From a virus, in IMG/VR virus record IMGVR_UViG_3300031576_000212, positions 1-33,830 of that record: a stretch of DNA of 33,830 bases; one strand, given 5' to 3'. Of this stretch, positions 5,846 to 12,360 are shown one piece after another. Position numbers and translations under genes: made by a program. Numbering within the stretch: position 1 is the first letter of the stretch; every line of letters starts with the position of its first letter. A model generated the notes under the pieces. That model did no database searches and was not told where the DNA came from. It worked only from the letters and a program-made list of their open reading frames with translations.

Positions 5846-6073
5846 TTATCCGCCACTTATTGCTGACGGCGGGGTCACCTTCTGCGATGTAATGACTTCG
5901 AGTTGTGGCTCATCCATCCATTGCGTCTCAGGGAGCTTTCCGTCCTTGTCCACCGGTTGCTGGATGGCGATGCGAATGCAGCCGTTCAGGTACTCCGTTC
6001 GCGAAACAGCGATGCCTTCTAGCCCCGATACGCTGTCGCGAACCTTATCTCCTAGCCCAATTTTCTGTGTCAT
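5846..6073 (-). CDS. Small SH3/KOW-like phage protein
   Basis: 75 aa, ATG at 6073 with ATGA overlap to the upstream gene and a good ribosome site (GGAGAGAG). The pattern GDKVRDSVSGLEGIAVSRTEYLNGC...IAIQQP...DGKLPETQWMDEPQLEVI is a small beta-barrel sequence. It is typical of short phage proteins that begin 'xGDxVxDxVSGxxGIAxxRxxYLxGC'. Their role is unknown. It sits directly upstream of recT in the recombination block. Confidence 0.75.
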   Translation of the reverse strand: MTQKIGLGDKVRDSVSGLEGIAVSRTEYLNGCIRIAIQQPVDKDGKLPETQWMDEPQLEVITSQKVTPPSAISGG

Positions 6074-6594
6074 GCTCTCTCCTTCTCCGGCGCAGCCCTG
6101 CGGCCTTCGCGCGCCTCAACCCACGTGGATGTCTTGGTCTCGATCAGCTCCTCGATTGCGTCAGCATCGATGCCGGCTGCTGTCCCTGAATCGCGTAGGC
6201 GCGAAGGGTCAAGGGATTTGGCGGACACCGCCGCCAACCCGACCAGGACGTTACCGGCGATTTCGTGCCGCGCGGCCCAATCCTCAAGTTGCTCAGCGTA
6301 TGCCGTCTCTGTGGTGCGGCTCCGGAAGCTGACATACCCGTACTCACTGCCATAACGCTCTATCCCCTGCTTCGCGAGGAGCGCGCCCGCTACGGACCCG
6401 AGCATCCCCTTGTACGACTTCCAGAGCTTCTCCTGCCGGGTGCACTCGATCATCCGTTGGGTCAGAAAAGCGAGGCGCTCTGGCACGTCGGCTATGCCCT
6501 CCGGCCACTCGATCACCTCGCCGGTGTCCTCATCGATGATGAGCTCGCCCACCTTGGCGATGTGGGCGCCGTACGGAGCGACCGTCTCCGTCAC
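6070..6594 (-). CDS. Hypothetical protein of the recombination block
   Basis: 174 aa from the ATG at 6594 (ATGA overlap). The sequence is helix-rich and charged. It opens with GELIIDEDTGEVIEWPEG and continues with coiled-coil-like segments (ERLAFLTQRMIECTRQEKLWKSYKGML). Overlaps at both ends place it in one translation unit with the small SH3-like gene and the 117-aa gene before it. A Gam-like nuclease inhibitor role would suit the position, but I see no specific signature for that. Confidence 0.7.
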   Translation of the reverse strand: MTETVAPYGAHIAKVGELIIDEDTGEVIEWPEGIADVPERLAFLTQRMIECTRQEKLWKSYKGMLGSVAGALLAKQGIERYGSEYGYVSFRSRTTETAYAEQLEDWAARHEIAGNVLVGLAAVSAKSLDPSRLRDSGTAAGIDADAIEELIETKTSTWVEAREGRRAAPEKERA

Positions 6595-11260: not shown

Positions 11261-11967
11261 GGCCCGTGGTGATGGCTTCCAGTGGCACTCGCCTCGTGCG
11301 CCGTCAGCGCATCATCCACAATCGCGGTCACCGCCCGGTGAATCCAGCCCGTCAGCCGCGCAATGGGCTCTGTGTTGCTGTCCGGATCCCCGGCGTAGTC
11401 CTTGCCGTAGCCCAACAGCTTGATTACCAGGTCGAGCTTGGCTTCCTGTTCCGGCGTCATGTCTGCACCTCCTACGATGATTGCGGCGATGTCGTTCCAG
11501 CGGATGCGGTCGTTAGGGCAAGACGTAGTCCCCGGCGCAACCCGTCTGTGTTCCTCGAACCCCTGCCCCAGCACCGGCGCTTTCAGGTGTGGGCAGAGCT
11601 TCCGTAATTCAGAATAGATGTGCGCGTCGGCCTCTACCTGGGCGTTGGTCTCCGGCGCGGTGAAATCGCCGGGTACGCTTTCGTGCTCGACGCCCACGCC
11701 CGTCTTGTTGGCCGGTGGGTTACCAGATGTCCACGTCGCCATCTCCAACTCGTAGTGCTGCCAGATCGTCCCGTCGGTGAGCACACTGGCGAGCCATGAC
11801 GCCGTGGCGCCGGGCCGGTGGCCCTGTTGTAAGTACGCCCGATAGCCCTGAGCGTCATGGCAGATGAGCTTGTCGATGTCCGCGAGGCTGCGGGCGAAGA
11901 ACTTGCCGTGGGGATACGCGGGGTCAAACGTTGCGGGCTTCCAGATGGCAGCCGTGATTCGGGTCAT
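11257..11967 (-). CDS. N-acetylmuramoyl-L-alanine amidase (endolysin)
   Basis: 236 aa from the ATG at 11967. The Amidase_2/PGRP-like domain is in residues about 15-170: LICHDAQGY supplies the first zinc histidine, GTIWQHYELEMATWTSGN the core strand, VGVEHES the next segment and GFEEHRRVAPGTTSCPND the last His and Cys ligands. The C-terminal 60 residues form a helical tail (MTPEQEAKLDLVIKLLG) ending in a short His run, probably a wall- or membrane-associating segment. It cuts the bond between muramic acid and the stem peptide. No clear ribosome site precedes the start; the hammerhead ribozyme lies on the opposite strand just upstream. Confidence 0.9.
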   Translation of the reverse strand: MTRITAAIWKPATFDPAYPHGKFFARSLADIDKLICHDAQGYRAYLQQGHRPGATASWLASVLTDGTIWQHYELEMATWTSGNPPANKTGVGVEHESVPGDFTAPETNAQVEADAHIYSELRKLCPHLKAPVLGQGFEEHRRVAPGTTSCPNDRIRWNDIAAIIVGGADMTPEQEAKLDLVIKLLGYGKDYAGDPDSNTEPIARLTGWIHRAVTAIVDDALTAHEASATGSHHHGP

Positions 11968-11975
11968 GCTACAAT
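11967..11975 (+). promoter_or_regulatory. Extended -10 promoter candidate before the ribozyme
   Basis: TGCTACAAT (TG-n-TACAAT) on the plus strand; no good -35 box. Initiation near 11982 would put the hammerhead ribozyme about 40 nt into the RNA. CATGCTACAAT is repeated with one mismatch at 12241, before the tRNA. On the minus strand the same bases straddle the endolysin start codon, so a function on that strand is also possible. Confidence 0.4.
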
Positions 11976-12022
11976 CCGTAGTCCGTGGGTTCCCCAGGGC
12001 GGCTGACAACGGGAACATCTGG

Positions 12023-12097
12023 CCCGGCAAAACGGCTGATGAGCGGTTGAGACCACCGCGAAACGCTAAAGCGTCCCGTGGAGTCCTCCCTGCCGGG
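12023..12097 (+). ncRNA. Type I hammerhead self-cleaving ribozyme
   Basis: All core elements are present in order. Stem I: CCCGGCA (12023-12029) with TGCCGGG (12091-12097), and ACGG (12032-12035) with CCGT (12076-12079). Core CTGATGA (12036-12042). Stem II: GCGG (12043-12046) with CCGC (12056-12059), 9-nt loop. GAAA (12060-12063). Stem III: ACGC (12063-12066) with GCGT (12071-12074), loop TAAA. Cleavage nucleotide C12075 follows GT, giving the preferred GUC triplet; cleavage is predicted between 12075 and 12076. Stem I has an asymmetric internal loop (AA opposite 11 nt), where natural hammerheads make the tertiary contact with loop II. The open stem is stem I, hence type I. It is antisense to the lysis operon, 56 nt upstream of the endolysin start. 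Confidence 0.92.
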
Positions 12098-12111
12098 GAA
12101 TAACTGAGGAC

Positions 12112-12243
12112 CTAGGCCGCCCAACTTCGCACCTCCTTCACGTACCTGTCCGCTGCGTCTCCCGTCGGCGTCCACCCCTCCAGCGCGTCCAGCCAGGCGT
12201 CCCAGATGGCGACGGCGACGAGGATGCCGAAGAAGAAGACCAT
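12112..12243 (-). CDS. Small membrane protein, 43 aa
   Basis: ATG at 12243, stop at 12112-12114. A short N-terminal hydrophobic helix (VFFFGILVAVAIW) is followed by an amphipathic, charged C-terminus. There is no clear ribosome site; the start shares the sequence ATTNTAGCATG with the endolysin start. It could be a small lysis protein or a by-product. It lies antisense to the stretch between the ribozyme and the tRNA. Confidence 0.5.
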   Translation of the reverse strand: MVFFFGILVAVAIWDAWLDALEGWTPTGDAADRYVKEVRSWAA

Positions 12244-12251
12244 GCTAAAAT
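12243..12251 (+). promoter_or_regulatory. Extended -10 promoter candidate before the tRNA
   Basis: TGCTAAAAT (TG-n-TAAAAT) on the plus strand, with no clear -35 box. Transcription would start near 12258, giving a 5' leader of about 13 nt before the tRNA and including the outer clamp. It is nearly identical to the element before the ribozyme. Confidence 0.4.
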
Positions 12252-12270
12252 GCGCTCCGGGCGACGGGCT

Positions 12271-12351
12271 TATCCGATAGCTCAATGGCAGAGCAGCTGG
12301 TTCGGGATTCCCCGAGCCAGCAGGTTCTCGGTTCGAGTCCGGGTCGGATAA
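12271..12351 (+). tRNA. tRNA-Pro(CGG)-like with 9-nt insertion in the anticodon loop
   Basis: Acceptor stem TATCCGA (12271-12277) pairs with TCGGATA (12344-12350), discriminator A. T8 and A9 follow. D arm GCTC/GAGC (12280-12283/12291-12294) with GG in the loop. T arm CTCGG/CCGGG with loop TTCGAGT (12332-12338). Variable loop AGGTT. The anticodon stem GCTGG/CCAGC (12296-12300/12317-12321) encloses 16 nt instead of 7. These begin TTCGGGA, the usual tRNA-Pro(CGG) loop, then TTCCCCGAG. The extra 9 nt pair with the loop, making one 11-bp hairpin with an ATTC tetraloop and hiding the anticodon. Outside the tRNA, GGCGAC (12260-12265) pairs with GTCGCC (12355-12360). CCA is not encoded. It fills the gap between two minus-strand genes exactly. 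Confidence 0.8.
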
Positions 12352-12360
12352 ATCGTCGCC

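Follow-up and report, generated by a model that had tools for sequence, protein, structure and literature searches.

The tRNA cluster of phage T4 contains two small stable RNAs, C and D, and the RNA family described here likewise consists of small phage RNAs, some of them found near tRNAs. Among self-cleaving RNAs, the closest known systems include the type I hammerheads surveyed in phage and prophage genomes (Perreault et al., 2011, PMC3088659; RF00163), with which our family shares the CUGANGA / GAAA / H17 core, the open stem I, the short stems, the U3-A8 swap and the phage or prophage location. Theta ribozymes, which have an HDV-like fold, are also self-cleaving and also occur near tRNA genes in Caudoviricetes (PMC10879173). 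The non-circularly permuted (type SGC) hammerheads (HRIMA-1; PMC10085705) resemble our family in joining a hammerhead core to pseudoknots and natural permutation, and the two-piece (permuted) tmRNA exemplifies an RNA working as two pieces or in permuted form (PMC10085705), a concept that recurs here.

The locus lies in a window of 33,830 nucleotides, positions 1 to 33,830 of the 33.8-kb IMG/VR virus record IMGVR_UViG_3300031576_000212. The genes that we identified there lie without exception on the minus strand; they encode terminase, portal, head protein, tape measure, tail fibre, an amidase endolysin, a RecT-like protein and a DnaC-like loader. No close relatives turned up in a search with the window's neighbouring proteins. 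The interval holding the RNA and a tRNA-like gene is flanked by the endolysin gene on one side and by small ORFs on the other. As the initial annotation had stated, both RNAs are specified by the plus strand, opposite to the identified genes on either side (endolysin; DNA-replication, head and tail genes). The RNA gene is about 140 nt long and comprises the following elements:

11983–12122, plus strand: whole phage non-coding RNA, with two pseudoknots and an embedded hammerhead (homologues, alignment, covariation)
11989–11994, plus strand: P1 5' strand GUUCCC, pairing with 12011–12016 (100% of cells paired; both-side changes in 5/6 pairs)
11997–12004, plus strand: P2 5' strand GGGCGGCU, pairing with 12115–12122 and crossing P1 (longest-helix test; permuted members)
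12011–12016, plus strand: P1 3' strand GGGAAC (covariation alignment)
12016–12022, plus strand: nearly invariant single-stranded CAUCUGG (alignment columns)
12023–12028, plus strand: P3 5' strand CCCGGC, pairing with 12092–12097 (99.2% paired; both-side changes in 4/6 pairs)
12077–12084, plus strand: nearly invariant CGYGGAGU, the 3' strand of hammerhead stem I and the entry to P4 (alignment columns)
12083–12088, plus strand: P4 5' strand GUCCUC, pairing with 12106–12111 and crossing P3 (97.7% paired; both-side changes in 4/6 pairs)
12092–12097, plus strand: P3 3' strand GCCGGG (covariation alignment)
12095–12105, plus strand: nearly invariant GGGGAAUAACU (alignment columns)
12106–12111, plus strand: P4 3' strand GAGGAC (covariation alignment)
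12115–12122, plus strand: P2 3' strand GGCCGCCC (longest-helix test)

Using blastn against phage records, we found that window positions 11983–12117 match the Arthrobacter phages Karkharias and Constance (80.7% identity, E 6e-26), while shorter parts of the element match the Mycobacterium phages Gaia and phiGD24-3 and the Microcystis phage Mwe-JY26, in whose copy the two ends of the element are preserved but the hammerhead is absent. Scans of IMG/VR with patterns taken from conserved parts of the element other than the hammerhead returned more than 100 contigs among the matches listed. When the same pattern was run once over 257 billion bases of prokaryote genomes, there were six matches: L222 and L224–L226 parse as family members, and the family model recognizes L223 and L227. 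Two independent anchors combined with helix tests yielded 98 distinct linear members among the matches listed, before thinning; our alignment comprises 87 linear members, to which 16 permuted members are additional. The family thus extends over more than 100 distinct phage and prophage sequences, with relatives in isolate phages of Arthrobacter, Mycobacterium, Microcystis, Enterobacter and Pectobacterium, on an Aquitalea plasmid and in E. coli prophages, a spread that takes in phages of actinobacteria, proteobacteria and cyanobacteria and MAGs of other phyla. Judged by sequence comparison, the hammerhead is an insert in this larger conserved RNA. Three loci deserve separate mention. A hammerhead-less member (L225) resides in a contig binned as archaeal (JANQNF010000005, MAG labelled archaeon); L037 and L117 each carry the RNA in two tandem copies at one place, the helix sequences differing between copies; and Streptomyces phage phiSASD1 (L230, 2920–3040) retains a remnant that extends from the 5' part to P1' only, adjoins the holin gene and is preceded by a tRNA-like sequence with a 9-nt anticodon loop.

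The core of the RNA consists of two pseudoknots, P1 crossing P2 and P3 crossing P4, and the strands of the linear form follow the order P1 P2 P1' P3 P4 P3' P4' P2'. Across the 87 aligned members, the counted structure contained 439 double-change cells, compared to 129 in shuffles and 36–90 in slid controls, with 95.9% of cells paired as against 75.4% in shuffles and a covariation score of 0.428 versus 0.114. For P2, alignment gaps bar direct counting, so we determined the longest helix that the P1 loop can form with the 3' tail. This helix averaged 7.8 bp, compared to 4.86 bp when the tails of different members were exchanged (200 shuffles, maximum 5.2). The unpaired segments CAUCUGG, CGYGGAGU and GGGGAAUAAC are nearly invariant throughout the alignment, in hammerhead-less members too. 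Neither the window, searched against Rfam 15 at E up to 5, nor 12 related loci, searched at E up to 2, gave a match to the pseudoknot core, and the same searches gave no tmRNA match to the element; the whole RNA was matched weakly and in its hammerhead part only. The strand order of P3 and P4 is similar to that of group I introns, but conserved intron elements are missing, and we discarded this assignment. In the open-access literature searched, we found no description of the core. Taken together, we are all but certain that the core defines a new RNA family with a double-pseudoknot fold. Structured RNA families with such covariation and phage spread are rarely found outside Rfam.

Embedded in this core is the ribozyme, for which the window predicts the following elements:

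12032–12079, plus strand: type I hammerhead ribozyme (core, homology, covariation)
12032–12079, plus strand, parts: stem I ACGG/CCGU; core 12036–12042; stem II 12043–12059; GAAA 12060–12063; stem III 12063–12074; C17 at 12075
12075–12076, plus strand: self-cleavage predicted between C12075 and C12076 (the junction coincides with the ends of permuted relatives)

The window sequence runs from CTGATGA through stem II (GCGGT/ACCGC), GAAA and stem III (ACGC/GCGT) to C17, with every base of the consensus core (C3 U4 G5 A6 N7 G8 A9 / G12 A13 A14 / A15.1-U16.1 / H17) present at 12036–12075. The bare hammerhead pattern occurs once in the window compared to 0.59 times expected; the Rfam model HH9 scores the window hammerhead at 16.5 bits, below its gathering score of 52, and in the 12 related loci searched the best family member reached 28.7 for RF00163, where the gathering score is 34. 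Because the bare pattern is near chance and the Rfam score far under threshold, homologues were needed, and it is homology, namely the blastn relatives and a family of about 100 members keeping the core, that confirms the plus-strand hammerhead of the initial annotation. The sub-threshold scores say more about the limits of the models than about the ribozyme, whose membership in type I rests on the core and on covariation. The insert is located between the P3 5' strand (ending in GGCA) and CGYGGAGU, its stem I borrowing the CGYG of the latter segment. It is present in roughly 70% of members (63/88 linear), whereas in about 28% (25/88 linear) the junction is closed, with 1–20 nt replacing the ribozyme, implying that cutting is not needed for the fold.

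The hammerhead could be parsed in 61 of the 87 aligned members. The CTGANGA core was found in 58 of these and a compensated U3-A8 in two more, a swap that is natural and active in hammerheads (PMC3088659), and position 17 was C or A in 58. The innermost pair of stem I varies (GC 31, CG 25, AU 6; UG also occurs), the inner pairs of stem II covary, and stems II and III differ in length with pairing kept, stem III measuring 3–9 bp in nearly all parsed members. Pair 10.1-11.1, which adjoins the core in stem II, is mismatched in about half, mostly as A.A and also as U.U or another mispair; as the 2011 survey discarded hits mispaired at this position (PMC3088659), many hammerheads of the family may have been missed earlier. 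PaP3, a phage with a hammerhead in that survey, gave no family match in its genome and was dropped as a candidate member. On a tree of the cores, hammerhead presence changes at least 22 times and permutation at least seven times, a hint, given the approximately 110 columns available, that both were repeatedly gained and lost. The hammerhead would very likely cut in vivo.

Searching with P3 and P4 only, we found 16 distinct circularly permuted members. Permuted copies are carried by the Pectobacterium phages Pappous, Taid and Setonix, the Enterobacter phage SDFMU_EhYP and E. coli prophages. Their order is [hammerhead]-CGYGGAGU-P4-P3'-GGGGAAUAAC-P4'-P2'-hairpin-CGUGGG-P1-P2-P1'-CAUCU-P3, and in all 16 both P1 (6/6 pairs) and P2 (6–9 bp), neither of which was used in the search, re-form. 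The hammerhead adjoins CGYGGAGU exactly on its 5' side in 15 members, and the remaining one, L129, is flanked on either side by tRNAs in place of the hammerhead. The ends of the permuted members coincide exactly with the predicted hammerhead cut site of the linear members, for which the most likely reading is that the ribozyme opens the RNA at one fixed junction. This arrangement hints that the RNA withstands being opened at the P3/P4 junction and often provides for it, and it is our strongest hint at mechanism. In two E. coli lambdoid prophages (L232 and L233, ~6000–6220), the permuted member has the Q antitermination gene on one side and the holin gene on the other. Among complete E. coli genomes, 108 of 5426 have at least a partial match, with 15 covering most of the query.

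Each of the two RNAs of the window is preceded by a promoter-like element:

11967–11975, plus strand: extended -10 promoter-like TGCTACAAT, with a predicted start at about 11982–11984 that coincides with the conserved 5' end (repeat and spacing)
12243–12251, plus strand: second extended -10-like TGCTAAAAT, before the tRNA and outside the RNA (repeated element)

The window contains exactly two copies of the motif CATGCTAMAAT, at 11965 and 12241 (expected 0.00), and 9 of 88 members have TGnTAnnnT 11–15 nt ahead of CGTGGG, compared to 0.45 expected over the five offsets. The pair is therefore not due to chance and the spacing recurs in relatives, in keeping with the promoter-like elements proposed in the initial annotation. 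The CAT of each copy is the complement of a minus-strand ATG, one belonging to the amidase endolysin and the other to a 43-aa ORF, and for this reason the likeness of the two elements could partly stem from translation starts. The 43-aa ORF (12111–12243, minus strand), whose start is the CAT of the second element, encodes a peptide with a hydrophobic N-terminal part (MVFFFGILVAVAIW...), and the ORF extends into the RNA at the latter's 3' end. In L003, L004, L083, L187 and phiSASD1, a tRNA or tRNA-like sequence directly precedes the RNA and could provide its 5' end through tRNA 3' processing. Downstream terminators are only mildly enriched among members (12/86 versus 5%); downstream of the RNA in the window, we saw none.

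As a whole, the locus is best explained, and with good probability, as a stand-alone phage non-coding RNA that is opened by its hammerhead. Transcription would start at the RNA's own extended -10 promoter, and the transcript would fold and be cut by the hammerhead after C12075, during or after transcription. Going by the sequence data, self-cutting into two pieces is probable; the product would be a two-piece RNA whose parts stay joined through P2 and P3, CCGUGGAGU carrying a 5'-OH, and in the permuted form the same cut would make the 5' end. That opening the P3/P4 junction is the ribozyme's actual purpose is an evenly balanced proposition. The opened RNA would then act in trans, its target probably being a component that many hosts share. 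We consider trans action moderately probable, given the several host phyla, the opposite neighbours and the frequent location at tRNAs or in the late region. In L010, L038, L047, L063 and L210, as in the window, the RNA runs opposite to both neighbouring genes, indicating a separate gene and making a cis-acting part of any single gene unlikely. Among the members' loci we found no common gene neighbour, and the function in trans and its target are accordingly guesses; wide phage spread combined with the lack of such a neighbour points to a host component shared by all, and the link to tRNAs and the late region suggests, as a guess, translation or RNA processing. The full proposal, a new and widespread class of phage RNA whose mature form is a deliberately opened double pseudoknot (two-piece or permuted), opened by the hammerhead and acting in trans on a universal host component, is tentative and falls somewhat short of an even chance.

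The main rival holds that the RNA is a natural aptazyme, in which the double pseudoknot senses a ligand, switches the hammerhead and so controls a transcript in cis. Such ligand-controlled cutting in cis has a named parallel in glmS. The conserved unpaired CAUCUGG, CGYGGAGU and GGGGAAUAACU resemble a binding pocket, the core and hammerhead stem I have a 3' strand in common, and the E. coli prophage copies located between Q antiterminator and holin could control lysis. We nevertheless regard an aptazyme as unlikely, as about 28% of members have no hammerhead and many of those are surrounded by tRNA genes, where no obvious target of regulation is present, as the RNA often runs antiparallel to the genes on both sides, and as the neighbouring genes differ between members.

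Much less probable is a unit of hammerhead and tRNA, as proposed in the initial annotation, in which the ribozyme processes a co-transcript and frees a masked tRNA. The masked tRNA itself held up:

12271–12351, plus strand: tRNA-like gene with an 11-bp anticodon arm (12296–12321) and no 7-nt anticodon loop (Rfam, ARAGORN)

RF00005 recognizes this gene with 54.3 bits (E 3.4e-9), and the cloverleaf and T arm are present; the anticodon arm is an 11-bp helix with an ATTC cap in place of the decoding seven-base loop, so that the tRNA cannot decode, and ARAGORN labels it 'tRNA-???'. In favour of a unit, ribozyme and tRNA follow each other on the same strand within 150 nt in the window, theta ribozymes adjoin phage tRNAs (PMC10879173), and the tRNAs within 500 bp of relatives are always on the same strand (27/88 members, with no opposite-strand case, compared to a tRNA at 7.2% of random places more than 1.5 kb away on the same contigs). 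The expected recurrence of hammerheads within 500 bp of a same-strand tRNA was seen for 15 of the 63 hammerhead members, whereas the remaining 48 show no recognisable tRNA at this distance, and hammerhead-less members are found among tRNAs more often than hammerhead members (12/25 compared to 15/63 within 500 bp). Moreover, the tRNA is upstream of the RNA in some members and downstream in others, and the window tRNA carries its own promoter-like element 20 nt upstream and need not share the ribozyme's transcript. The hammerhead sits inside a separate, larger pseudoknotted RNA, which is what the ribozyme of the permuted members would trim. The window tRNA is best treated as a separate neighbouring unit, with tRNAs being facultative neighbours of the RNA.

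Most of the neighbouring tRNAs look canonical by ARAGORN and by a crude parse, and we abandoned an aberrant anticodon arm as a family trait; the few odd ones occur in L003, L013, L077, L187 and phiSASD1. An exact scan of IMG/VR viral contigs for the masked anticodon arm gave no match. Just upstream of the hammerhead-less member of L173 (IMGVR 3300034152_000478), positions 1982–2122 hold a permuted tRNA with its 3' half first, which we set aside as a different RNA, since it scores as YrlA-like (Y RNA-like; 45.3 bits, gathering score 69); a further tRNA-like sequence at 1716–1784 has an anticodon arm capped by GAAA.

Two further explanations, each about as improbable as the other, can be dealt with briefly. 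A packaging or virion RNA that would act with terminase and portal, in a role by analogy like that of phi29 pRNA, would suit the copies between the terminase large subunit and portal genes (L071, L112) or near terminase or portal genes (L008, L234), but the link to packaging genes is not fixed, other members lying among tRNAs, at lysis genes or near helicase or integrase. A mobile or decaying passenger of no benefit to the phage would fit the truncated phiSASD1 remnant, the tandem copies and the scattered distribution, but is opposed by strong purifying covariation in all four helices across distant phages, by the fold being kept after permutation and by our finding no associated mobility gene.

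Compared to the systems outlined at the outset, the stand-alone RNA opened by its hammerhead differs in several respects. In contrast to the described type I phage hammerheads (PMC3088659), the ribozyme here is housed in a loop of a double-pseudoknot RNA, the 3' strand of its stem I is common to both, pair 10.1-11.1 is mispaired in about half of the cases, and scores fall below the Rfam cut-offs. Unlike the theta ribozymes (PMC10879173), it is a hammerhead and not an HDV fold, belongs to another RNA whose strand order departs from the nested double pseudoknot with catalytic C of HDV, and is not at a tRNA 3' end, the tRNA being optional; theta ribozymes lie 3' of the tRNA, whereas the window tRNA is downstream of the ribozyme, and Rfam gave no HDV-like match in the window or in the 12 related loci. 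In contrast to HRIMA-1 (PMC10085705), the hammerhead here keeps the classic CGS (type I) order and the surrounding RNA is circularly permuted. In contrast to the two-piece tmRNA, the phage element has no tRNA-like domain or tag frame. The T4 RNAs C and D were considered as homologues and rejected, the family model R1 giving no match in that T4 region (L228) and no common motif being visible by eye. Three unusual traits come together in this family, interlocked pseudoknots, a ribozyme in one loop, and permutants ending at the cut site, and its presence in E. coli prophages makes a study in a laboratory host possible. The proposed opening would give phage and prophage hammerheads, which have no known purpose, a concrete role. 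In sum, the ribozyme is of a known kind, and the RNA that carries it appears to represent a new class.
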